64,000 nt of DNA from Zoogloea sp. (GTDB lineage: Bacteria; Pseudomonadota; Gammaproteobacteria; Burkholderiales; Rhodocyclaceae), in NCBI RefSeq assembly GCF_023150065.1, contig NZ_JAKLLN010000007.1, forward strand, positions 1-64,000. The letters run 5' to 3'. Below, piece after piece: positions 11,254 to 23,073 of the stretch (position 1 is the stretch's first letter; each line of letters begins with the position of its first letter). Position numbers and translations under genes: made by a program. The notes below the pieces were generated by a model, which ran no database searches, was not told where the DNA came from, and worked only from the letters and a program-made list of their open reading frames with translations.

Positions 11254-12047
11254 TCTCCGGTGAACTTCGGCGCGCGCTTTTCCATGAAAGCGGCCACGCC
11301 TTCGGCGTAGTCCGGGCTCCAGCCCAGCTCGCGCATGAAGCCGCCTTCAAAGGAGAGCTGCTGCTCCAGGGTGTGGCCCGGGGCGGCGTGCATGGCCTGG
11401 CGGGTCCGCACCAGGGCCTTGGTGGGCATGGCCGCCAGCTGGCTGGCCAGGGCGTCGATGCGGGCGGCGAAGGCGTCATCGGCCACGGCTTCCCAGATCA
11501 GACCCCACTCGGCGGCCTTGGCGGCCGGCAGCTTGTCGGCCAGCAAGGCCAGGCCCATGGCACGGGCCATGCCGACGCGCTGGGGCAGGAACCAGGTGCC
11601 ACCGGTATCCGGCACCAGGCCGATCTTGCTGAAAGCCTGCAGGAAGGAGGCGGACTGGCTGGCAATCACCAGATCGCAGGCCAGGGCCACGCTGGCGCCG
11701 GCACCGGCGGCGATGCCATTGACCGCGGCGATGGTGGGCACGCGCAGGTTCTGCAGGCGCAGCACCAGGGGCTTGTAGTTCTTCTCGACCACGTTGCCGA
11801 TGTCCGGCATGCCGCCGCTGGGGGTGCGGGCCATGTCCGGGTCGGCCAGATCCTGGCCGGCGCAGAAGGCGCGCCCGGCGCCGGTGAGCACCAGCACGCG
11901 GATCGAGGTGTCGGCCTGGACGGTGTCGAGGGCGTCACGCAGCTCGGCGTGCATCTCGCCGGTGAAGCTGTTGAGCTTGTCGGGGCGGTTGAGGGTCAGG
12001 CGAGCGACGCCGTCGGTGATCTCAAACAGAATGTTCTTGAATTTCAT
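11250..12047 (-). CDS. paaG: Ring-1,2-epoxyphenylacetyl-CoA isomerase PaaG
   Basis: A 265-residue crotonase-family isomerase. It converts the epoxide to oxepin-CoA and later shifts a double bond in the ring-opened product. The segments GRAFCAGQDLADPDM and GIAAGAGASVALACD are the PaaG-type oxyanion-hole motifs, and FSKIGLVPDTGGTWFLP is diagnostic for this subfamily. An AGGAGA ribosome site lies before the ATG. A 130-base gap separates it from paaN upstream. Confidence 0.96.
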   Translation of the reverse strand: MKFKNILFEITDGVARLTLNRPDKLNSFTGEMHAELRDALDTVQADTSIRVLVLTGAGRAFCAGQDLADPDMARTPSGGMPDIGNVVEKNYKPLVLRLQNLRVPTIAAVNGIAAGAGASVALACDLVIASQSASFLQAFSKIGLVPDTGGTWFLPQRVGMARAMGLALLADKLPAAKAAEWGLIWEAVADDAFAARIDALASQLAAMPTKALVRTRQAMHAAPGHTLEQQLSFEGGFMRELGWSPDYAEGVAAFMEKRAPKFTGE

Positions 12048-12177
12048 TCAAATCTCCTGAACTCGTGCAGAAATCGTAGCGAGCCCGTTCAGGCCGGTTC
12101 GAGAAGCGCAGCCGTACTCATGTACGGCGAGCATCGCAGGGCCGGGATGGGCAGGCGCAGTAGATTTATGCGCGGGT
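12048..12177. repeat. Intergenic spacer with a perfect 7-bp inverted repeat between paaN and paaG
   Basis: The spacer holds GCCGTAC-TCAT-GTACGGC at 12111-12128, a perfect hairpin without a T-run. It looks like a dispersed palindromic element or a processing/attenuation hairpin, not a classical terminator. No open reading frame with gene-like features is seen here. Confidence 0.45.
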
Positions 12178-13845
12178 TCAAACGTGGTAGCGGCGCTGAA
12201 TGACACGGAAGCGGTTGGCGACGAAGGCCGAGTCGGCATAGGACGCGTTGGCCGCCGGGTTGCCGCCGGTACCGTGGTAGTCGGAGTAGGCCGCCGACTG
12301 ATTGACGAAAACACCACCGGTGAGGTTGATGGACAGGGCCACCTTGCTGCGCCAGGTGGCCTCGGTCATGGCGTCGATGACGCTCTGCTGGGTGGAATAC
12401 ACGCCGGCAGTGAGGGCACCGTGGGTGCTGACGACCCGCTCGGACAAGGCGATGGCGGCGGCAGTGTCGGCCACCTTGACGATGAAACTGATGGGGCCGA
12501 AACGCTCCTCCATGTACGCCTTTTCATCTGCGGCGTCGCAGGCCAGCAGCACCGGGGTGCGCACCTTGGCGGCCGGGAATTCGGGGTTCTCCAGGGCGGT
12601 GGAAGCCAGCACCACCTTGCCCAGGGCACCACTGTTGGCCAGCTCGATGCGCTCGGCGGTATCGGCGGACTGGATGGCGCCCAGCACGGCGTGGGCCACT
12701 TCGGGCTTGGACAGGAAGCGCTCGATGGCCTTGCCCAGGTCGGCGCAAAACTCGTCATAGCTCTTGGGGCCGTCTTCGGTGTCGATGCCCCCGGCCGGCA
12801 CAAACAGGGCCTGGGAGGTGGTGCACATCTGGCCCGAGTACAGGGACAGGGTGAAGGCCAGATTGCCCAGCATGGCCTTGTAGGCGTTGGTGGAGTCGAT
12901 GACGATGTTGTTCACCCCGGCCAGCTCGGCATACACCTGGGCCTGGCGGCTGTTGTCGATCAGCCACTGGCCGAACACGTTGCTGCCGGTGAAATCGACG
13001 GACTTGACCGCCGGGTGGGTGGCCAGGGCCTGGGTGGTGGCGCGCTTTTCGGCCACGCACAGCGTCACCAGGTTGGGGTCGATGCCGTTTTCGGCAAGCA
13101 CGGCGCGGATGGTGCGCACGGTGATGGCGGCCGGCAGGATGGCGTTGCTGTGGGGCTTGATGATCACCGCGTTGCCGGTGGCCAGGGCGGCAAACAGGCC
13201 CGGGTAGGTGTTCCAGGTGGGGAAGGTGCCACAGCCCACCACCAGGCCAATGCCACGGCCGACGATCTGGAAGTGCTTCTTCATGACCAGCGCCGGGTTC
13301 TTGCCCTGGGGCTTTTCCCATACCGCGTCGGCGGGCACGAAGCTCTGCTCGCGCCAGGCGTAGGCGACGGCCTCGAGACCGCGGTCCTGGGCGTGGGGCG
13401 CGCCAGCCTGGAAGGCCATCATCCAGCCCTGCCCGGTGGTCATCATGACGGCGTGGGCCAGCTCGAAGCTCTGCTTGTTGAGGCGGTCGAGGATCTCGGC
13501 GCAGATGCCGGTGCGGCCATCGGCACCCACCGCCTGCCAGCCCTGCATGGCGGCCAGACCGGCGGCGATCAGGGCCTCCGGATCACACACGGGGTAGCTC
13601 ACCCCCAGGGCCACGCCGTAGGGCGAGGACTCACCACCATGCCAGCCGCTCTGGCCCGGCTGGCCGAGCTCGAAGGGCTTGCCCAGGTGGGCTTCGAAAG
13701 CACGCTTGCCGTCATCAGGAGCCGTTTCGCCATACAGCTTGGGGCTGGGCATCTCGGGATAGGCCGACCAGTAGCTGCGGGTGGCGATGGCGCCCAGGGC
13801 GCCCTCCAGGGTGGCGCGATGCTTCTCGAACAGGGGGTGAGTCAT
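12178..13845 (-). CDS. paaN: Phenylacetate degradation aldehyde dehydrogenase PaaN (PaaZ aldehyde dehydrogenase part)
   Basis: A 555-residue aldehyde dehydrogenase-superfamily protein that oxidises the semialdehyde formed when the oxepin-CoA ring is opened. E. coli PaaZ (about 680 residues) joins this domain to a MaoC-like hydratase. Here the protein stops after the dehydrogenase part (last residues VIQRRYHV), so the hydrolytic ring-opening step must come from another enzyme. The visible catalytic region is SGQMCTTSQALFVP with its cysteine, and VDFTGSNVFGQ lies before it. A GGAG site precedes the start, and a sigma-70-like promoter lies at 13883-13911. First gene of the operon. Confidence 0.94.
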   Translation of the reverse strand: MTHPLFEKHRATLEGALGAIATRSYWSAYPEMPSPKLYGETAPDDGKRAFEAHLGKPFELGQPGQSGWHGGESSPYGVALGVSYPVCDPEALIAAGLAAMQGWQAVGADGRTGICAEILDRLNKQSFELAHAVMMTTGQGWMMAFQAGAPHAQDRGLEAVAYAWREQSFVPADAVWEKPQGKNPALVMKKHFQIVGRGIGLVVGCGTFPTWNTYPGLFAALATGNAVIIKPHSNAILPAAITVRTIRAVLAENGIDPNLVTLCVAEKRATTQALATHPAVKSVDFTGSNVFGQWLIDNSRQAQVYAELAGVNNIVIDSTNAYKAMLGNLAFTLSLYSGQMCTTSQALFVPAGGIDTEDGPKSYDEFCADLGKAIERFLSKPEVAHAVLGAIQSADTAERIELANSGALGKVVLASTALENPEFPAAKVRTPVLLACDAADEKAYMEERFGPISFIVKVADTAAAIALSERVVSTHGALTAGVYSTQQSVIDAMTEATWRSKVALSINLTGGVFVNQSAAYSDYHGTGGNPAANASYADSAFVANRFRVIQRRYHV

Positions 13846-14191: not shown

Positions 14192-15220
14192 ATGGCCAGT
14201 CACAAGGAACGTTTTGCCGACAAGATGGAGTTTCCGCCGGAAACCGCGCAACCCAACATCTATCCCCTGTCGTGGAACAGCAAGACCAAGAAGCTGCAGG
14301 AGGTCTGGGAGGCTTCCCTGCGCGAGAACTGGGATCCGGAGAAGCTGCCCTGGGACACCCTGGACCTGGACAGCTACACCTGGGAAGAGCGGGAATCGAT
14401 CGCTTACTGGTGGAGCCTGCTGTCGGTGTTTGACGCCTCCGCGCCGCCGGTCTTCGCCGAGGCCCTGATCAAGACCTACGAAGTGCATGAGGAAGACCCC
14501 GTGCGCAAGTGCTTCTTCTCGGTAACCCGGGACGAGCAGAACCACGAGATCATGTGCGGGCTGGCCATCACCCGGCTGCTCGGCCACCCCGACCCGCTGA
14601 CCTATCAGCCCAAGACCGAGCTCGGCAAACGCCTGCAGAAGAACGTGGCCTGGCTGTACTTCAACGGCGGCCGCTACTGGACTGGCTACAAGCAGGCCGT
14701 GCCCAAGTACGACCTGGCCGTACTGTTCAGCTCCTTCCTGATGGGCGAGATCGCCGCCGCCACCATCTTCAAGCAGATGTACGAGAACTCCCGCGAGGCG
14801 GTGTTCAAGGAAGGCTTCCGCAACATCGGCCGCGACGAAGGCCGCCACATGGCCATCTGCATGGCGGTGATGGAGCGCGACTACCCGGGTCTCAAGGAAG
14901 AGACCAAGTCCATCGTCACCAAGCAGATCCGTGCCGGCTACCTGTTCCTGTCCGCCGTGCTGTTCGAGCCGCCCATGGAGTTCTGGGACCTGCCCGCCGA
15001 CTTCATCGACAACCAGCGCGAGGCCGAGGAAGTGGCCCGCGGCGCAGGCTTCGGCATTCCCACCTACGAGGCCAAACTGCAGAACTGGAAGAACGCCATG
15101 ATCAACCTGAAGGGTGTGCTCGACCGCTACAACATCCCCTTCCCTGCCATCCCCGAGGTTGGCATCACCGGTCAGGAGGTCAGCGATCTGGATATGGAAG
15201 ACATCATCCCGGTGTTCTGA
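14192..15220 (+). CDS. R2-like (ferritin-fold) diiron oxygenase of unknown substrate
   Basis: A 342-residue helical protein of the ferritin/R2-like diiron superfamily. Two ExxH motifs are clear: E115-x-x-H118 (RDEQNHE) and E216-x-x-H219 (RDEGRHM). E186 (LMGEIAA) and an acidic residue near 90-101 are plausible further ligands, giving a complete carboxylate-bridged site. It is not PaaA, BoxB or a ribonucleotide reductase subunit by length or motifs. The next gene is a dedicated ferredoxin-type reductase, so together they look like a two-component oxygenase. The gene sits between the paa operon and paaX with a strong AAGGAGGAG site. The substrate is unknown; an aromatic acid, CoA ester or side-chain oxidation feeding the pathway is only a guess. 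Confidence 0.8.
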   Translation: MASHKERFADKMEFPPETAQPNIYPLSWNSKTKKLQEVWEASLRENWDPEKLPWDTLDLDSYTWEERESIAYWWSLLSVFDASAPPVFAEALIKTYEVHEEDPVRKCFFSVTRDEQNHEIMCGLAITRLLGHPDPLTYQPKTELGKRLQKNVAWLYFNGGRYWTGYKQAVPKYDLAVLFSSFLMGEIAAATIFKQMYENSREAVFKEGFRNIGRDEGRHMAICMAVMERDYPGLKEETKSIVTKQIRAGYLFLSAVLFEPPMEFWDLPADFIDNQREAEEVARGAGFGIPTYEAKLQNWKNAMINLKGVLDRYNIPFPAIPEVGITGQEVSDLDMEDIIPVF

Positions 15221-15286: not shown

Positions 15287-16336
15287 ATGTCCCGCATCAT
15301 CATGCAACCCTCGGGCAAGTCGGTGGACTGCGCCTATGGCGACACCGTCCTGATGGCCCTCGAGAAGGCTGGCTACGCCCTTCCCAACAACTGCCGCGCC
15401 GGTGCCTGCGGTGAATGCAAGGTCAAGGTCACGGCGGGCCAGTTCGACCAGGGCATGGTCCTGGACATGGCCCTGTCCCAGGAAGAGCGCCGCCAGGGCT
15501 ACGGCCTGATGTGCATGGCCAAGCCCATCTCCGACGAGCTGACCATCGAGTGGGGCACCGAAGACGCCAAGCCCAAGCTCTTTCCGCCTCGGGAGGACGC
15601 CCTCTTCGTGCTCGTCGACAAGCGCCAGGTGGCCGAGCGGGTGGTCGAGCTGCGCCTGCGCCCGGTGGGCCAGCCGATCCGCTACTGGCCGGGCCAGTAC
15701 GTCACCCTGGGCAACCCCCGGGCCGACATCCCCGCCCGGGCCTACTCCATCTCCAACGCCCCGCGCCCGGATGGCGAGCTGGTGCTGCAGGTGGCCCGGG
15801 CCGACGACGGCCTCACCAGCCAGTGGGTCCATGACAGCCTGGCGGTGGGCGACAGCGTGAAACTCTCCGGCGCCTACGGCACCTTCATCGGCGACCCCGG
15901 CGTAGACACGCCCGTGCTGTGCCTGGCGGCCGGCACCGGCCTCGCGCCCATCCTCGCCCTCACCGAAGCGGCCCTGCGCCGGGGCTTCCGCAAGCCGGTC
16001 ACCGTGATCTTCTCGGCCCGCAGCGAAGCCGATGTGTACAGCCGCGGCATGCTGGCCTGGTGGCGCACCAAGCACCGCAACTTCGACTACAAGATCACCC
16101 TGACCCGTGAAGTCCGCGATGACAGCCTGTCCGGCCGCATCGACAGCGTACTGCCCGGACTCTTCCCGGACCTGTCGAAGCACACCGTATTTGCAGCCGG
16201 CAGCCCGGCCTTCGTGGATAGTTGCGTGGCCACGGTAAAAGCGCTGGGAGCCCTGCCGGAGCGGGTGCATACGGAAGGCTTTTTTGCCCAGCAGCAGCCG
16301 GTGGTGGCCGATGCGGATCACCTCCTCAACTTCTGA
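15287..16336 (+). CDS. NAD(P)H:ferredoxin-type oxygenase reductase
   Basis: A 349-residue flavo-iron-sulfur reductase with the [2Fe-2S] domain first and the FNR domain second, the order seen in phenol hydroxylase (DmpP), BenC and CDP-glucoseen reductases. Cluster ligands are in NCRAGACGECKV (C-x4-C-x2-C), with the distal cysteine in YGLMCMAKP. RAYSISNAP binds FAD, and CLAAGTGLAPI binds the nicotinamide nucleotide. It starts 66 bases after the diiron oxygenase gene, across a strong palindrome. It most likely supplies electrons to that protein; electron transfer to PaaA is less likely because paaE is present. Confidence 0.85.
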   Translation: MSRIIMQPSGKSVDCAYGDTVLMALEKAGYALPNNCRAGACGECKVKVTAGQFDQGMVLDMALSQEERRQGYGLMCMAKPISDELTIEWGTEDAKPKLFPPREDALFVLVDKRQVAERVVELRLRPVGQPIRYWPGQYVTLGNPRADIPARAYSISNAPRPDGELVLQVARADDGLTSQWVHDSLAVGDSVKLSGAYGTFIGDPGVDTPVLCLAAGTGLAPILALTEAALRRGFRKPVTVIFSARSEADVYSRGMLAWWRTKHRNFDYKITLTREVRDDSLSGRIDSVLPGLFPDLSKHTVFAAGSPAFVDSCVATVKALGALPERVHTEGFFAQQQPVVADADHLLNF

Positions 16337-16418
16337 GCCGCCCCGGAAGCGCGCTACCCATAAGGCGGGCGAGTCGCTAAACTCGCCGCTTTCGTGCTCC
16401 ACCCCCACGCCGGCTACA

Positions 16419-17363
16419 GTGCTTTCCCCCGTTCAGAAACGCCTCGACGACTTTCGACAGCAAGGCCGCGTGCAGGCCGGCTCGCTCATCATTTCGGTGT
16501 TCGGCGACGCCGCGCTCCCCCGGGGCGGGCGGATCTGGCTGGGCAGCCTGATCCGCCTGCTCGAGCCCCTGGAGCTCAACGAGCGCCTGGTGCGCACCTC
16601 GGTCTTCCGTCTCGCCAAGGAGGAATGGCTGCGCACCGAGCCCTCGGGGCGGCGCACCGACTACCTGCTCACACCCTCCGGTCAGCGCCGCTTCGAGGAA
16701 GCCTCGCGGCACATCTACGCCTCCAGCGCCCCCCAGTGGGACCGCCGCTGGCGCCTGATCGTCACCGTGGGCGACCTCGCCCCGAAAGAGCGCGAGGCCC
16801 TGCGGCGCGCCCTGTTCTGGCAGGGTTTCGGGGTGATCGGCGGAGACTGCTTCGTGCACCCCAGCGCCGACCTGTCGGCGGCCTTCGACGCCCTGATCGC
16901 CGAAGGCCTGTCGGATCTGCTGGGCAAACTCAAGCCCCTGCTCGCCGCCGACGCCCAGTTCGGCAACGCTGCCAACGACGTGGACATGGTGCACGGCGCC
17001 TGGAACCTGGAACGCCTGGCCGACATGTACGCCGAGTTTGTCGACCGCTACCAGCCGGTGCTGGCCCAGCTGCGGGCCGACGTGCAGGAGGACATCGACG
17101 GGGAAAGTGCCTTCCTGCTGCGCACCCTGCTGATCCACGACTACCGGCGCCTGCTGCTGCGTGACCCGGAGCTGCCCGACGTGCTGCTGCCCGCCGAGTG
17201 GCCGGGCCAGAAGGCCCGCCTGCTGTGCAAGGAGGTCTACCGCCGCCTGCTGCCCGCCTCCGAGGGTCATCTGGACACCCTCTTCCAGCTCGCCAACGGC
17301 CAGACACCGGAAGCCTCCCCCCTGCTCCTCGAACGCTTCCGCGAAGCCGACCCCCTGGCCTGA
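16419..17363 (+). CDS. paaX: Phenylacetate catabolon transcriptional repressor PaaX
   Basis: GntR-like repressor that in known systems releases its operators on binding phenylacetyl-CoA. The 314-residue reading from GTG 16419 has an N-terminal winged-helix region (around GGRIWLGSLIRLLEPLELNERLVRTSVFRLAKEEWL, interrupted here by no gap) and a PaaX C-terminal domain ending RLLPASEGHLDTLFQLANG. The start is uncertain: no good ribosome site precedes the GTG, and in-frame ATGs at 16284 and 16311 would overlap the reductase gene. Length from the GTG fits the family (about 305-315). Probable targets are the paa promoters near 13.9 kb, 18.0 kb and 19.0 kb. Confidence 0.9.
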   Translation: MLSPVQKRLDDFRQQGRVQAGSLIISVFGDAALPRGGRIWLGSLIRLLEPLELNERLVRTSVFRLAKEEWLRTEPSGRRTDYLLTPSGQRRFEEASRHIYASSAPQWDRRWRLIVTVGDLAPKEREALRRALFWQGFGVIGGDCFVHPSADLSAAFDALIAEGLSDLLGKLKPLLAADAQFGNAANDVDMVHGAWNLERLADMYAEFVDRYQPVLAQLRADVQEDIDGESAFLLRTLLIHDYRRLLLRDPELPDVLLPAEWPGQKARLLCKEVYRRLLPASEGHLDTLFQLANGQTPEASPLLLERFREADPLA

Positions 17364-17372
17364 AGGCCCGGC

Positions 17373-17993
17373 TCAGCCCTCCTTCTTGCGCAGTGCCACC
17401 AGGGGCACCACGTCGGGCAGGTGGATGCGTTTGCGGTCGGGTTCGATTTCGGTGAGCGGGTCGGTCTCCACCAGGGTGGCGAGGCAGCGTCGGGTGAGAT
17501 CCTGATACGTTGCCGTCCCCTCCCCTTTCCAGCGGATCTCCTCCTCGCTGAGCTCGCGGATGACCTTGGCAGGCATGCCGGCCACCAGCACCCGTGGCGG
17601 AATCTCTGCGCCGGCCTTGACGAAGGCCGATGCCGCCACGATGGAGGATTCGCCGATCACCGCGTTGTCCATGATCACCGCGTTCATGCCCACCAGGGCG
17701 TTGCGACCGATACGGCAGCCATGCAGCACCGCGCCGTGCCCAATGTGGCCGTCCTGCTCCACCACGGTGTCCGTACCGGGAAAACCGTGCATGACGCAGG
17801 TATCCTGGACATTGGCCCCCTCCTCGAGGATCAGCCGGCCGAAGTCACCGCGCAGGCTGGCGCAGGGGCCCACGTAGCAGCCCGGGCCGACGATCACGTC
17901 ACCGATGAGCACAGCAGAAGGGTGAACGTAGGCGCTGGGGTGCACCACCGGAACGATGCCGTCGATGGCATACACACGCAAAGTTGTCGTCAT
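17373..17993 (-). CDS. paaY: Phenylacetate pathway thioesterase PaaY (gamma-carbonic anhydrase fold)
   Basis: A 206-residue left-handed beta-helix protein of the hexapeptide-repeat family. In related bacteria PaaY hydrolyses CoA esters such as the dead-end 2-hydroxycyclohepta-1,4,6-triene-1-formyl-CoA. The hexapeptide pattern covers roughly residues 14-135, with the metal-ligand-type histidines in TCVMHGFPG and [12 protein letters not shown]. The ATG at 17993 is preceded by AAGGAGA. An upstream in-frame start at 18050 adds a non-conserved tail. It converges with paaX. Confidence 0.93.
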
Positions 17994-18012
17994 GATTGGC
18001 TGTCTCCTTGGC

Positions 18013-18044
18013 TTGACACTGGGTTTCTTATGATGAAATCTATT
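18013..18044. promoter_or_regulatory. Divergent promoter zone of paaY and the iclR-type gene
   Basis: TTGACACTGGGTTTCTTATGAT at 18013-18034 resembles the stretch upstream of livH (TTGACTAGGGATTTTGTATCAT at 19014-19035): both start with TTGAC and end in a TATnAT word at the same distance. It may be a shared regulator site, or simply a -35 hexamer plus chance similarity. Confidence 0.35.
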
Positions 18045-18088
18045 GTGCAATACGTAACACCCATCACCTTACCCGAGAATTCACGATC

Positions 18089-18898
18089 ATGAGTGACGAG
18101 CTGGAAGGCAAACACGGCGTCCAGTCCCTGGAAGTGGGCATGGGCATCCTCAAAGCCATGGTGAGCGGCAAACGCTCCATGATGCTCAAGGACATCGCAG
18201 CGGCTGCCGAGATGCCCCCCTCCAAGGCCCACCGCTATCTGGTCAGCCTGATCCGGGCCGGCCTCGTGGAGCAGGACCCGCTGACCTCCCGCTACAACCT
18301 GGGGCCCTTCGCCCTCAACATCGGGCTCGTCGCCATCGACCGCCTCGACCGGGTGCGGGTGGGCATGGCCGCCATCGCCGAACTCCGCGACCAGATCAAC
18401 GAGACCACGGCGCTGGCCGTGTGGGGCGACAACGGCCCCGTGGTGGTGCGCTGGGAACGCCCGCGCCGGGCCATCACGGTGAACGTGGTCACGGGCACCC
18501 GCCTCAGCCTGCTCAACTCGGCCGCCGGGCGGGTGTTTGCCACCTGGCTGCCCCGCACCCAGATCGACCCTCTGCTGGAGCAGGAACTCCTCAGCGAAAA
18601 AAGAACGCCCCCCGGCGTCCATACCCTGAAAGACGCCCACGCCCTGCTGGCCGAAGTCGAGGCCCGGGGTGTGGCCGCCATCACCGGCAATTACATGGTG
18701 AAGGGTGTCGAGGCGCTTTCTGCCCCGGTGTTCAACTTCAAGAACGAGCTCACCATGGCCCTGATCATCGTGGGGGTGGAAGGATCGGTGGACATGGGCC
18801 CCGACAGCAGCGTGATCGCCGAACTCAAGCGGGCCGCCGACTCCCTGTCGCGCCGCCTGGGTTCAACCCGGGATGGCAACGCCCCTCCGGCCGACTGA
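18089..18898 (+). CDS. IclR-family transcriptional regulator
   Basis: A 269-residue regulator with an N-terminal winged helix (about 10-75, recognition segment AEMPPSKAHRYLVSLIRAGLV) and a C-terminal IclR effector domain (about 85-255, with AAGRVFATWLP and the GVEALSAPVFN core). It is divergent from paaY and followed, after a terminator, by livHMGF. It is probably a local regulator responding to an aromatic acid or CoA ester, controlling paaY, itself or the transporter (inference). The effector cannot be read from the sequence. Confidence 0.9.
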   Translation: MSDELEGKHGVQSLEVGMGILKAMVSGKRSMMLKDIAAAAEMPPSKAHRYLVSLIRAGLVEQDPLTSRYNLGPFALNIGLVAIDRLDRVRVGMAAIAELRDQINETTALAVWGDNGPVVVRWERPRRAITVNVVTGTRLSLLNSAAGRVFATWLPRTQIDPLLEQELLSEKRTPPGVHTLKDAHALLAEVEARGVAAITGNYMVKGVEALSAPVFNFKNELTMALIIVGVEGSVDMGPDSSVIAELKRAADSLSRRLGSTRDGNAPPAD

Positions 18899-19161: not shown

Positions 19162-20043
19162 ATGAGCATGCTTGCCCAGTTCCTGCAATTCCTCTTCTCC
19201 GGCGTCACCGTGGGTGCCACCTATGCGCTGGCCGCCCTTGGCTTCACGCTGATCTACAACGCCAGCAACGTGATCAACTTCGCCCAGGGCGAGTTCATCA
19301 TGCTGGGCGGCATGCTGGCGGTGTTCTTTGTACAGTCTGGCCTGCCCCTGCCGGCCGCGCTGGTGCTGGCCATCCTGGTACCGGCGGTCGTCGGCATCCT
19401 CATCGAAAAGCTGGCCATCGAGCCGGTCAAGGGGGCCGAGACGGTGACCCTGATCATCATCACCATTGGCGCCTCCCTGGTCATCCGCGGCCTCACCGCG
19501 GTGATCTTCGGCAAGGGCACCCACAGCCTGCCGGCCTTCTCGGGCGACGAGCCAATCCAGATCCTCGGTGCCACCCTGATGCCCCAGAGCCTGTGGGTGC
19601 TGGGCGTCACCGCCATCGTGGTGGTGGTGCTGTGGTACTTCTTCAACCGCACCCTCACCGGCAAGGCCATGCTGGCCACCTCCTACAACCGGGTGGCGGC
19701 CGAACTGGTGGGCATCAACACCAACGGGGTGCTGTTCATGAGCTTCGCCATGTCGGCCGCCCTGGGCGCCCTGGGTGGCATCCTGGTCACCCCCATCACC
19801 CTCACTTCCTACGACGCCGGCATCATGATGGGCCTCAAGGGCTTCGTCGCCGCGGTGCTGGGTGGGCTGGGCAACGGGCTCGGCGCGGTGGTGGGCGGGC
19901 TGCTGGTGGGCATTCTGGAGGCCATGGGCGCGGGCTACCTGTCCTCGGCCTACAAGGACGCCATCCCCTTCGTGCTGATCCTCTTCATCCTCTTCTTCAT
20001 GCCCCGCGGCCTGTTTGGCGCCCGGGTCACCGACCGGGTGTAA
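19162..20043 (+). CDS. livH: ABC transporter permease LivH-type
   Basis: A 293-residue integral membrane permease of the branched-chain amino acid/aromatic acid uptake family. Hydrophobic segments run through the whole chain, starting at FLQFLFSGVTVGATYALAALGF. The GLKGFVAAVLGGLGN segment is the ATPase-contact (EAA-like) region of LivH proteins. It starts an operon livH-livM-livG-livF that follows a terminator. With the binding protein encoded in the paa operon, it probably imports phenylacetate or other aromatic acids (inference). Confidence 0.93.
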   Translation: MSMLAQFLQFLFSGVTVGATYALAALGFTLIYNASNVINFAQGEFIMLGGMLAVFFVQSGLPLPAALVLAILVPAVVGILIEKLAIEPVKGAETVTLIIITIGASLVIRGLTAVIFGKGTHSLPAFSGDEPIQILGATLMPQSLWVLGVTAIVVVVLWYFFNRTLTGKAMLATSYNRVAAELVGINTNGVLFMSFAMSAALGALGGILVTPITLTSYDAGIMMGLKGFVAAVLGGLGNGLGAVVGGLLVGILEAMGAGYLSSAYKDAIPFVLILFILFFMPRGLFGARVTDRV

Positions 20044-20045
20044 AC

Positions 20046-20978
20046 ATGCGCAACCGTGCTTACAACGGGCTCTACGTCGTCATCGCGATCCTCGTCGTGC
20101 TGCCCTTCGTGCTGCCCAACAGCTTCTATCTCGACCTGGCCATCCGCATGGCCATCAACGCGGTCATCGTGCTGGGCCTCAATCTGTTGATCGGCTTTGC
20201 CGGGCAGATCAGCCTGGGGCACGCCGGCTTCCTGGGCATCGGCGCCTACGCCTCGGCGGTGCTGCCCACCCACTTCGGCTGGCATCCGGTGCTGGCCATG
20301 GTGGCCGGCGCGGTGGCCACCGGCGTGCTGGCGGCCCTGGTGGCGCGGCCGATCTTCAAGCTCAAGGGCAATTACCTGGCCATGGCCACCCTGGGCCTGG
20401 GCATCATCCTCAGCATCGCCCTGCGCAACGAGGCCCAATGGACCGGCGGCCCCGACGGCATGCCGGTGCCGGCCTTCGGCGTGTTCGGCTTCGAGCTGTC
20501 CAGCGACAAGCACTGGTACTGGGTGGTGGCGATCCTGCTGTCGGTGAGCGTGTGGGCCTCCCTCAACCTCATCGACTCGCCCTTCGGCCGGGCGCTGCGG
20601 GCGCTGCATGGTTCCGAGGTGGCGTCGCGGGTGGTTGGCGTGGATGTGGTGCGTTACAAGGTCTCCATCTTCGTGCTGTCGGCGGTATTTGCCAGCCTGA
20701 TGGGCAGCATCACCGCCCATTACGTGGGCTTCGTGACCCCCAATCTGGCCGACTTCTTCCACTCCATCGAGCTGGTGACCATGGTGGTGATCGGCGGCAT
20801 GGCTTCGGTATATGGCTCCCTCGTGGGCGCCGTGCTGCTCACCGCCCTGCCTCAGGCCCTGGCCACCTTTGAAGGCTGGGAGACCGTGGTGTTCGGCGCC
20901 ATCCTGATGATCTGCATGATCTTCCTGCCCAAGGGCCTCGTGCCCACGCTGGCGGCGAAGTTCGGCAAGGGGGAATAA
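20046..20978 (+). CDS. livM: ABC transporter permease LivM-type
   Basis: A 310-residue second permease subunit, two bases after livH. It has repeated hydrophobic helices and the LivM signatures LIGFAGQISLGHAGFLGIGAY and VVIGGMASVYGSLVGA (the coupling-helix region). The ATG at 20046 was chosen because it directly follows the livH stop. Much longer reading frames through this region are not coding. It forms a heterodimeric channel with LivH. Confidence 0.93.
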   Translation: MRNRAYNGLYVVIAILVVLPFVLPNSFYLDLAIRMAINAVIVLGLNLLIGFAGQISLGHAGFLGIGAYASAVLPTHFGWHPVLAMVAGAVATGVLAALVARPIFKLKGNYLAMATLGLGIILSIALRNEAQWTGGPDGMPVPAFGVFGFELSSDKHWYWVVAILLSVSVWASLNLIDSPFGRALRALHGSEVASRVVGVDVVRYKVSIFVLSAVFASLMGSITAHYVGFVTPNLADFFHSIELVTMVVIGGMASVYGSLVGAVLLTALPQALATFEGWETVVFGAILMICMIFLPKGLVPTLAAKFGKGE

Positions 20979-20982
20979 CACT

Positions 20983-21744
<762 letters not shown>

Positions 21745-21762: not shown

Positions 21763-23073
21763 ATGGAAGCACTCCGCATCATCAAGGACGAGCACCGCAA
21801 CCTGTGGCGTCTCGCCATCACCCTCGATCAGGTCATCGGGGAAATGCAGCAGGCCAACAAGGCCGACCCGGCCTTCATCAGCTCGGTGCTCGACTACTTC
21901 GAGCACTTCATGGACGGCTGCCACCACCGCAAGGAAGACGAGCACCTCTTCCGTCTTCTGCGCCTGCGCAGCGATGCCGCCGCCCCCTTGCTGGATCGCC
22001 TGCAGGCCGAGCACCGCAACGCGCCCCACAACCTGGCAGCCCTGCGCCAGCGCCTGGCAGACGTGCAGTCCGGCCGCGGGACGGTGCAGGACCTCACCGA
22101 TGCCCTGCGCCGCTACATCGACGAGCAGAAGGCCCACATCCGCGCCGAGGAGCAGGACATCTACCCCCTCGCCCGGGACGTGCTCACCCCGGACGACTGG
22201 GCCGAGATCGACAAGGCTTTTCTGGACAACGACGACCCCGTCTTCGGGCAGGAAGCCCGGGCCGAATTCCGCGAACTCTTCCACAAGGTGGCCAGCCTGG
22301 CCCCCGTGTCGGTGGGCCTGGGTGGAGCGACGGCCGGCGAGCTGCAGCCGGCCGACGCCCCGGCCGATGTGCTGCTCAAGGTGGAAGGCCTGGAGAGCTG
22401 TTACGGCCGCATCAAGGCCCTCAAGGGCATCAGCCTCGAAGTGCGCCGGGGCGAGACGGTGGCCCTGGTGGGCGCCAATGGCGCCGGCAAGACCACCTTC
22501 CTGCGCAGCCTGTCGGGTGTGCAGCCCATGAGCGCCGGGCGGATCAGCTTTGACGGGGAAGACATCTCGAAGCTCCGCTCCGACATGCGCATGCGCCGGG
22601 GCATCTGCCAGTCGCCCGAGGGGCGCCAGGTGTTCGGCCCCCTGTCCATCGAGGACAACCTGCGCCTGGGCGCCTACACCCAGCCCAAGGAGCAGGTGGA
22701 GGGTGACCTGGAGAAAATCTACGCCATGTTCCCCATCCTCAAGGAGAAGCGGAAGCTGCCGGCAGGCACCCTCTCGGGCGGTCAGCAGCAGATGCTGGCC
22801 ATCGGCCGCGCCCTGATGGGGCGCCCCAAACTGCTGCTGCTGGACGAACCCTCCATGGGCCTGGCCCCGCTGCTGGTGGAGGAAGTCTTCAACGTAGTGA
22901 AGGCCCTCAAGGCCCAGGGCATGAGCATCATCCTGGCCGAGCAGAACGCCTTCTCGGCCCTCGCCATCGCCGACCGGGGCTATGTGCTGGAAACCGGCAC
23001 CATCACCCTCAGCGGCAGCGGCCGGGAGCTCATCGAAGACGAACAGGTGCGGGCGGCCTACCTGGGGATGTAA
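21763..23073 (+). CDS. livF: Hemerythrin-LivF fusion: hemerythrin HHE domain joined to ABC ATPase
   Basis: A 436-residue protein. Residues 1 to about 180 form a hemerythrin/HHE four-helix domain with a full set of candidate diiron ligands: H11, H54-x-x-x-E58, H84 and H125-x-x-x-E129. A short Ala/Pro-rich linker (about 185-203) leads into a complete LivF ATPase: Walker A GANGAGKTT at 237-245, signature LSGGQ at 337-341, Walker B LLLLDEP to 363, and AEQN at 392-395 where LivF proteins usually have EQN. Ordinary LivF is about 235 residues, so the N-terminal domain is an added module. A GAGGAA site precedes the ATG, and no start or stop signal separates the two parts. An oxygen- or iron-responsive control of uptake is inferred. 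Confidence 0.93.
   Translation: MEALRIIKDEHRNLWRLAITLDQVIGEMQQANKADPAFISSVLDYFEHFMDGCHHRKEDEHLFRLLRLRSDAAAPLLDRLQAEHRNAPHNLAALRQRLADVQSGRGTVQDLTDALRRYIDEQKAHIRAEEQDIYPLARDVLTPDDWAEIDKAFLDNDDPVFGQEARAEFRELFHKVASLAPVSVGLGGATAGELQPADAPADVLLKVEGLESCYGRIKALKGISLEVRRGETVALVGANGAGKTTFLRSLSGVQPMSAGRISFDGEDISKLRSDMRMRRGICQSPEGRQVFGPLSIEDNLRLGAYTQPKEQVEGDLEKIYAMFPILKEKRKLPAGTLSGGQQQMLAIGRALMGRPKLLLLDEPSMGLAPLLVEEVFNVVKALKAQGMSIILAEQNAFSALAIADRGYVLETGTITLSGSGRELIEDEQVRAAYLGM

Follow-up and report, generated by a model that had tools for sequence, protein, structure and literature searches.

Hemerythrin-like domains have been found on a number of different output domains, including the chemoreceptor DcrH, the diguanylate cyclase Bhr-DGC, Bhr-HD-GYP and P1B-5 ATPases, and the hemerythrin ligand set consists of five histidines, one glutamate and one aspartate (PMC9388753). 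No ABC protein is among the hemerythrin sensors in the available text of that article, in which the words "ABC" and "transporter" occur 0 times. A count of O2-binding hemerythrins arrived at 56 architectures, and "ABC" is likewise missing from the main text of that study (PMC4919030). A further article makes one mention, in its available text, of a hemerythrin protein in R. palustris (PMC12844201).

Closer to the locus presented here are the COG3945 HHE genes of benzoate clusters in Rhodocyclales and Rhodoferax ferrireducens, which occur together with a putative benzoate ABC transporter (PMC6449761, 2019). The role of these HHE proteins was called unclear, perhaps that of an O2 store or scavenger or of protection from toxic compounds, and in the available text the control of aromatic catabolism is treated via transcription factors (BoxR, BenR, AphS and others), with no control of the transporter proposed. 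In the open-licence literature, supplementary files aside, we recognised no published report of an HHE domain fused to LivF. To our knowledge, no gas- or redox-sensing ABC importer ATPase has been described before.

Here, we describe such a fusion in Zoogloea sp. The window, by which we mean the whole stretch of 64,000 nucleotides that was analysed, encodes a LivF-type ATPase with an N-terminal HHE domain. Hemerythrin-domain sensors and Liv-type importers are both already known, and the fusion is a new variant of these.

Architecture of the fusion protein

The fusion gene is the last of an operon with the order livH-livM-livG-livF, which adjoins a paa cluster (Table 1). Its ATG lies 18 bases past the livG stop and is preceded by a GA-rich stretch. 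The protein begins with a hemerythrin/HHE domain, which a linker connects to a complete ABC ATPase of the LivF type: Pfam places Hemerythrin (PF01814) at residues 4-137, with 58.9 bits against a curated cut-off of 25.3, and ABC_tran (PF00005) at residues 220-364, while the top NCBIfam match is the LivF model at residues 203-435. An initial annotation of the window had read this region as one uninterrupted frame joining an HHE domain to a complete LivF, and had named six candidate diiron ligands; the frame is confirmed, and the six residues were found where it had placed them.

The Walker A (GANGAGKTT), signature (LSGGQ) and Walker B (LLLLDEPS) motifs of the cassette are invariant or nearly so among 64 aligned fused proteins, and the operon supplies LivH, LivM and LivG partners, as expected of a LivF-type importer ATPase. 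With LivF, the ATPase of the branched-chain amino acid ABC importer, the protein shares the complete ATPase domain, the livH-livM-livG-livF order and a LivK-type binding protein. It differs in having about 200 more N-terminal residues, which contain the HHE domain, and in its score of 259.2 bits, below the LivF equivalog cut-off of 441 bits. As judged from its sequence, the ATPase works like LivF, without being classed as a leucine-type LivF itself.

In the whole-protein model (pTM 0.70), residues 188-199 have a pLDDT below 50. A fold search with this model brought up ATPase-containing proteins among its best 50 hits, and the HHE part was therefore modelled and searched separately. Modelled alone (pLDDT 92.7), it is predicted to form helices at residues 2-31, 36-69, 71-103 and 108-140, a four-helix bundle with the conserved His and Glu ligands, plus two more helices. 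Within these two, D145 and W146 are invariant also in ten aligned stand-alone HHE proteins.

Table 1. Features of the fusion gene and its neighborhood in the window. Locus counts refer to 70 loci of the fusion (see text).
Feature	Coordinates	Strand	Basis
HHE-LivF fusion protein	21763..23073	+	436 aa + stop; single open frame, ATG 21763 to stop 23073; Pfam, NCBIfam, alignment
Hemerythrin/HHE domain, residues 4-137	21772..22173	+	PF01814; predicted helices; candidate ligands H11, H54, E58, H84, H125, E129
Two extra helices, residues 143-179	22189..22299	+	Structure models
Linker, residues 188-202	22324..22368	+	Whole-protein model
LivF-type ATP-binding cassette, residues 203-436	22369..23070	+	NCBIfam LivF model 203-435; fold match 1ji0, 52% identity
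livH-type permease	19162..20043	+	Pfam BPD_transp_2, 137 bits; same-strand LivH in 59/70 loci
livM-type permease	20046..20978	+	Pfam BPD_transp_2, 153 bits; present in 64/70 loci
livG-type ATPase, partner subunit, unfused	20983..21744	+	NCBIfam LivG top match; present in 65/70 loci
LivK-type protein, probable substrate-binding protein of transporter	5499..6644	-	Pfam Peripla_BP_6; within divergent paa cluster
paa gene set	122..13845	-	PaaE, PaaA, PaaK, PaaH, PaaN above NCBIfam cut-offs; rest named by resemblance and order
PaaX-type regulator	16470-17363	+	Above NCBIfam cut-off (tested as longer frame 16284-17363)
PaaY	17373-18050	-	Above NCBIfam cut-off
IclR-type regulator, immediately 5' of livH	18089..18898	+	Pfam IclR_C; homologue in 19/70 loci

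Reality and distribution of the fusion

The HHE part was scanned against one genome per species, covering 84,980 species, and the best 80 of 244 relatives were analysed; as these were selected by score, the counts do not give a population fraction. The HHE domain was joined to LivF in 69 of the 80. Sixty-three of these are full-length, including L090, whose first three residues are absent at a contig end; four are cut by a contig end inside LivF (L056, L083, L086, and L087), the frame of L071 stops early in LivF, and L042 lacks an inner LivF stretch. Ten of the 80 carry an HHE domain without LivF fusion, and L094, in which the contig stops exactly at the HHE/LivF junction, was not counted as fused. 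The fusions occur in Beta-, Gamma- and Alphaproteobacteria. A second complete fusion, 76% identical to the window protein, is present on contig C218 of the same genome in another aromatic cluster, which we take to be a meta-cleavage set with phenol-hydroxylase-like genes about 16-21 kb upstream. A sequencing error or chance joining of two genes, which the initial annotation had considered, is ruled out by the 63 genes that are fused over their length, and the second copy in the same genome likewise speaks for a real fusion.

The nearest named relatives among the matches listed were two Zoogloea MAGs, with 86% identity over the HHE part. Three samples of genomes, in each of which the Zoogloea genome itself is counted, indicate how widespread the pairing is, a matter that the initial annotation had referred to database searches. 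In the family sample, 12 of 121 genomes had a match at E ≤1e-120, 11 of them fused; in the order sample, 12 of 399 matched at 1e-100, with 10 fused; and in the phylum sample, 6 of 398 matched at 1e-95 or better, the 4 fused ones being the Zoogloea genome and three of one other genus. With 4 of 398 genomes at 1e-95, a cut-off that more distant fusions could escape, the notion that the fusion is common across Pseudomonadota is unsupported. Among plasmids, 280 records matched at 1e-60, one of which, from Azospirillum lipoferum 4B, spans at least 80% of the protein; the fusion region is unannotated in that record. Four genomes occur in two of the collections used here (L068/G031, L103/G117, L108/G055, and L047/G012), so that their counts are not additive. 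Overall, the HHE-LivF fusion is real, conserved and uncommon, and is spread across several families.

The putative metal site and the type of hemerythrin domain

H11, H54, E58, H84, H125 and E129 are invariant in the 64 aligned fused proteins. All six are found among the only 11 invariant positions of the first 138 columns (P = 5e-8 for a random draw, ignoring kinship), and of the 31 His, Glu and Asp positions of the HHE part, only these six and E130 are invariant. Over 76 fused proteins, the mean identity to the window protein is 51% for the HHE part and 83% for the LivF part; because the HHE part is far less alike than the LivF part, the invariance of the ligand site is selective. The domain probably binds iron and, from the conservation of the site, would hold two irons.

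The six ligands are complete in 73 of the 76 fused proteins. The three exceptions (L126, L127, and L128) belong to one genus and carry E58 to T and H84 to Y replacements, which were repeated in a second alignment, so that the general loss of ligands in close homologues that would have spoken against the initial annotation did not appear. In this genus, the HHE domain may have a metal-free role. At locus L133, from one of its three genomes, the fusion is surrounded by PaaX-, LivK- and PaaABCDE-like genes. A 1172-aa gene with weak likeness to indolepyruvate oxidoreductase follows there on the opposite strand.

When a profile of the HHE domain was compared with solved structures, YtfE was the best match over the whole sequence (1.4e-7 to 2.2e-7), a score that sums two overlapping stretches, of which a single one reaches 9e-4 to 0.0014. 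NMB1532 came second, in one stretch (4.6e-6 to 4.9e-6), and FBXL5 third (1.2e-4). The YtfE alignment pairs H54, E58, H84, H125 and E129 with H129, E133, H160, H204 and E208, which are diiron ligands of YtfE in the available text of PMC9268430. The register is completed by H11 and YtfE H84, which are matched by order only, giving the H...HxxxE...H...HxxxE pattern of RIC/YtfE proteins. RIC is defined by an N-terminal ScdA_N domain, and this domain was absent from the Pfam matches to the fusion protein at E 0.001; a further difference from RIC/YtfE is the fusion to an ATPase. In the fold search with the HHE part alone, the nearest solved fold was NMB1532 (PDB 2p0n; TM 0.64/0.75, probability 1.00), with a weak Foldseek E-value of 0.06. 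All E-values of that search exceeded 0.05, and FBXL5 was present at E ~2. NMB1532 is a protein of 172 aa with no ATPase joined to it.

O2-carrying hemerythrins are characterized by an HxxxH motif in helix three and HxxxxD in helix four. In at least 90% of the 64 aligned fused proteins, P occupies position 88, four residues after H84, so that HxxxH is missing; in the window protein, E129 and E130 come after H125, and the D is lacking. The seven-ligand set of O2-carrying hemerythrins is thus incomplete, which also sets the protein apart from the hemerythrin-domain sensors as described in the available text of PMC9388753, with which it shares the joining of a hemerythrin-like domain to an output domain; one of those outputs is a transport ATPase. 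As the ligand pattern is of the RIC/YtfE type and not that of O2-carrying hemerythrin, reversible O2 binding should not be presumed. The HHE domain is as likely to respond to NO, redox state or iron loading as to O2.

These relationships bear on two other explanations. The first is that the domain acts as a RIC-like iron donor or repair module, which keeps nearby diiron or Fe-S pathway enzymes metallated. In its favor, no solved structure matches the whole sequence better than YtfE/RIC, with five ligands in register, and the diiron enzyme PaaA is encoded in the window; nevertheless, with the ScdA N-terminal domain absent from the Pfam matches and no reason for such a module to be fused to LivF instead of to the enzymes, we regard this as highly improbable. 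The second is that the domain is an iron gauge resembling that of FBXL5, in which iron loading folds and stabilizes the HHE bundle, the iron-free fused ATPase is unstable or inactive, and import proceeds only when iron is available for the oxygenases. Most aerobic pathways linked to the fusion use iron enzymes, and the profile places FBXL5 close to the domain among solved structures, as the fold search also lists it. However, both YtfE and NMB1532 outscore it, and the genus without two of the ligands still has the fusion, which makes an iron gauge unlikely.

Genomic context of the fusion

The contexts of the fusion were compared over 70 loci, comprising the 69 fused ones and L094; one gene sufficed to assign a locus to a category, and categories overlap. 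LivG, LivM and LivH genes, wherever present, were always on the strand of the fusion, and 58 of the 70 loci contained at least one gene of the scored clusters. Genes of the paa type were found in 44. A recurrent cluster, encoding a metallo-beta-lactamase-like protein, an FAD monooxygenase, a VOC protein and a fumarylacetoacetase-like protein, was found in 18, and from this content would act on aromatics. Phenylglyoxylate dehydrogenase (pad) genes adjoined the transporter, with PaaK and box genes, in five loci; box alone was found in one, PaaK alone in one, and phenol-hydroxylase-like genes in two. PadG, BoxA and BoxC scored above their NCBIfam cut-offs, and the label phenol hydroxylase is our presumption, the genes in question having no NCBIfam match at 1e-20. 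The 12 loci without scored cluster genes each span less than 12.5 kb of DNA.

Judging from these neighbors, the transporter would import an aromatic acid, here probably phenylacetate or a relative. Since pad genes serve anaerobic phenylacetate oxidation, an explanation by O2-dependent catabolism alone would be too narrow. Of the initial proposal, an aromatic-acid importer with a regulatory domain serving the O2-dependent paa pathway, the first part agrees with the fusion, the ligand set and the paa neighbors, while the specificity for that pathway conflicts with the pad, box, FAD-monooxygenase and probable phenol-hydroxylase loci, and at 44 of 70 loci the fusion is not always beside paa. The same annotation had supposed an organism that also respires other acceptors. 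Three strong cytochrome-d1 places in the Zoogloea genome would be consistent with denitrification, whereas no NarG was found above the cut-off in that genome.

Within the window, the LivK-type protein of the divergent paa cluster (Table 1) would be the binding protein of the transporter; its homologues adjoin Liv genes in L020, L030, L032 and L135. Two further genes of the paa region drew our attention. One, at 14192-15220, encodes a 342-aa protein that matches AurF, a diiron N-oxygenase, below threshold; it has homologues in 18 of the 70 fused loci and had no PDB relative by sequence at E 1. The other, at 15287-16336, encodes a BenC/MmoC/PaaE-like reductase with homologues in 20 of the 70. 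Together, they could constitute an undescribed two-component diiron oxygenase.

Related HHE domains outside the fusion

The same HHE family also occurs as a separate protein. Contig C111 of the Zoogloea genome has a livM-livG fusion, then an unfused livF and then a separate HHE gene (livF-HHE pair at C111:439424-440747), with DmpE above its cut-off nearby. This HHE gene and its partner are alike in kind to, and may belong to the same orthologue group as, those of the benzoate clusters in the available text of PMC6449761; the window protein differs from these in that its HHE domain is fused to the N-terminus of another LivF lineage. The gene in which livM and livG are joined (L021:7573-9405 on C111, 610 aa) has counterparts in L192, L196 and L207, and operons of this type end in livF followed by a separate HHE gene.

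Among the ten stand-alone loci of the best 80 of 244 relatives, the HHE gene immediately follows livF in five (L106, L110, L111, L112, and L113), of which L111 has LigK above its cut-off nearby, and lies away from Liv genes in the other five (L096, L105, L107, L114, and L115). A second HHE frame immediately follows the first in L096, L107 and L115.

A profile search of 121 family genomes detected the HHE family in 58 of them, at 109 places, 12 of which are LivF fusions. Neighbors were analysed for the best-scoring 60 of the 97 unfused places; this ranking is biased by the make-up of the profile, for which 43 fused and 10 stand-alone sequences had been used. Twenty-two of the 60 HHE genes lie immediately behind livF (21) or livK (1) on the same strand, at gaps of 10-174 bases, for which we estimate a chance expectation of about 0.2% of genes (some 5,000 genes, of which about ten are LivF-like). 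Gap sizes rest on a simple codon-score gene caller, which set some starts wrongly. Another 15 have a box, thiolase, benzoate-ligase or regulator gene within two genes, and 18 are linked to a universal stress protein (13 adjacent, 5 fused); of the rest, 2 have other neighbors and 3 are without a called HHE gene. All six ligand positions are present in 50 of the 57 HHE calls, the other 7 being N-terminally cut and having fewer than six. Apart from the five fusions to universal stress proteins among these 60, the Zoogloea genome itself encodes one, at C88:3102-4118 (L022).

That the family is found beside box-type genes (15) and universal stress proteins (18) among these 60 loci is in line with another explanation, tethered gas handling, in which the HHE domain buffers or scavenges O2 or NO, or feeds O2 to oxygenases, its attachment to the importer serving only co-production and co-location. 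The same guess has been published for the separate COG3945 protein (available text of PMC6449761). A single domain per transporter subunit would be a poor buffer, however, the fusion partner is an importer ATPase even in the 5 of 70 loci with anaerobic pad genes, and the fifth His of O2 carriers is missing. The paa, box and phenol hydroxylase oxygenases all require O2, as gas handling would have it; weighing these points, we think it an unlikely account of the fusion.

HHE genes are also lacking near several close unfused LivFs: none was detected by profile within about 1.5 kb of G094, G226, G050, G756 and G525, nor by BLAST in about 20 kb around G094, G226 and G050. A Paracoccus operon of this Liv kind adjoins paaN and is likewise without HHE. 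Two facing Liv operons are present at locus L138 (G050), one paa-like with an unfused LivF and one of the livM-livG-fusion type, with no HHE gene in 20 kb.

Evolutionary history

In a tree of HHE domains (85 rows, including 19 of the 76 fused HHEs; the short call L200 was left out), all 19 fused rows are on one side of a branch (100/95), so that a single fusion event is likely. Separate branches contain the HHEs of livM-livG-type Liv operons (14 rows, 100/100), those of box loci (14 rows, 100/93) and those of universal stress proteins (19 rows, 18 of them labelled as such, 99/96). The Liv-neighbored HHEs are scattered, requiring 6 changes on the tree, 2 of which are forced by well-supported branches.

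The LivF tree (65 rows, including 41 of the 76 fused LivFs) unites these 41 with seven unfused relatives in one group (97/95), within which the fused label needs 4 changes. The two LivF types that have HHE encoded after them fall outside it, those of the L106/L110/L176 type in one group (8 rows, 98/82), with L169 on a long branch, and those of the L021/L192 type in another (2 rows, 100/99). Given Liv operons without HHE, and HHE coupled in three LivF lineages, the coupling most simply arose more than once; alternatively, one ancient HHE-Liv coupling may have been followed by many losses. The unfused G226 (3 rows, 99/98) and G094 (8 rows, 99/91) are nested among the fused LivFs, a placement that the loss of a regulatory add-on would produce, and these lineages probably lost the HHE domain while keeping the transporter. 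For the basal unfused LivFs (Variovorax, Paracoccus, G050, G525, and G756), the lack of HHE may reflect loss or a pre-fusion state. With two ligands lost in one genus and two lineages probably without HHE, the domain appears to be accessory.

Such losses raise the question whether the domain is a structural or decaying add-on with no role in sensing. Besides the two probable HHE losses in retained operons and the genus with two ligands gone, it would account for an HHE part that is conserved far less than LivF. Yet invariance in the 64 proteins extends to all six ligands but to few further positions of the HHE part; this requires selection on the site, and we consider the add-on explanation quite improbable.

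Proposed role and implications

We tentatively prefer a reading, about evenly poised between right and wrong, in which this ATPase fills the LivF position of an ABC importer for aromatic acids and carries at its N-terminus a diiron domain of the hemerythrin type as a sensor in cis. The HHE bundle would hold two irons via its six ligands, as suggested by their invariance and the YtfE register. The state of this site (O2-oxidised, nitrosylated or unloaded) would alter the bundle or the pair of helices at its C-terminal end, and the short flexible linker at the LivF N-terminus would pass the change on to ATP hydrolysis or LivF-LivG pairing, and so to the rate of uptake. The outcome would be an immediate, post-translational match of uptake to conditions permitting the ring-opening enzymes, in bacteria that alternate between O2 and nitrate. 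Candidate signals are redox state, O2, NO and iron loading; the three cytochrome-d1 places of the Zoogloea genome make NO a plausible one.

Sensing in cis is supported by the recurrence of the fusion in 69 of the best 80 of 244 relatives, the ligands retained in 73 of 76 fused proteins and the coupling of HHE to Liv genes across three LivF lineages. Against it, the genus that has lost two ligands (three genomes) still keeps the fusion, and the HHE branches with box-type genes and universal stress proteins fit a general O2, NO or stress protein equally.

More broadly, the HHE family could have diverged by partner, one branch being fused to LivF, others encoded after livF in two further Liv lineages, and others again accompanying benzoyl-CoA epoxidase genes or universal stress proteins. 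The fusion would then belong to a guild of aromatic-acid ABC importers gated post-translationally by a diiron gas or redox sensor, through which facultative denitrifiers decide between the aerobic and the anaerobic route of ring degradation at the point of uptake. This wider picture is possible, if doubtful.

Ready-made natural controls exist in the fusions without two ligands and in G094, an HHE-less relative of the same genus with a LivF that is 82% identical. If sensing in cis holds true, the HHE gene of benzoate clusters would gain a testable physical partner, and a diiron domain in the motor of an importer would add a fast post-translational control point to the usual account of aromatic catabolism in terms of transcription factors.
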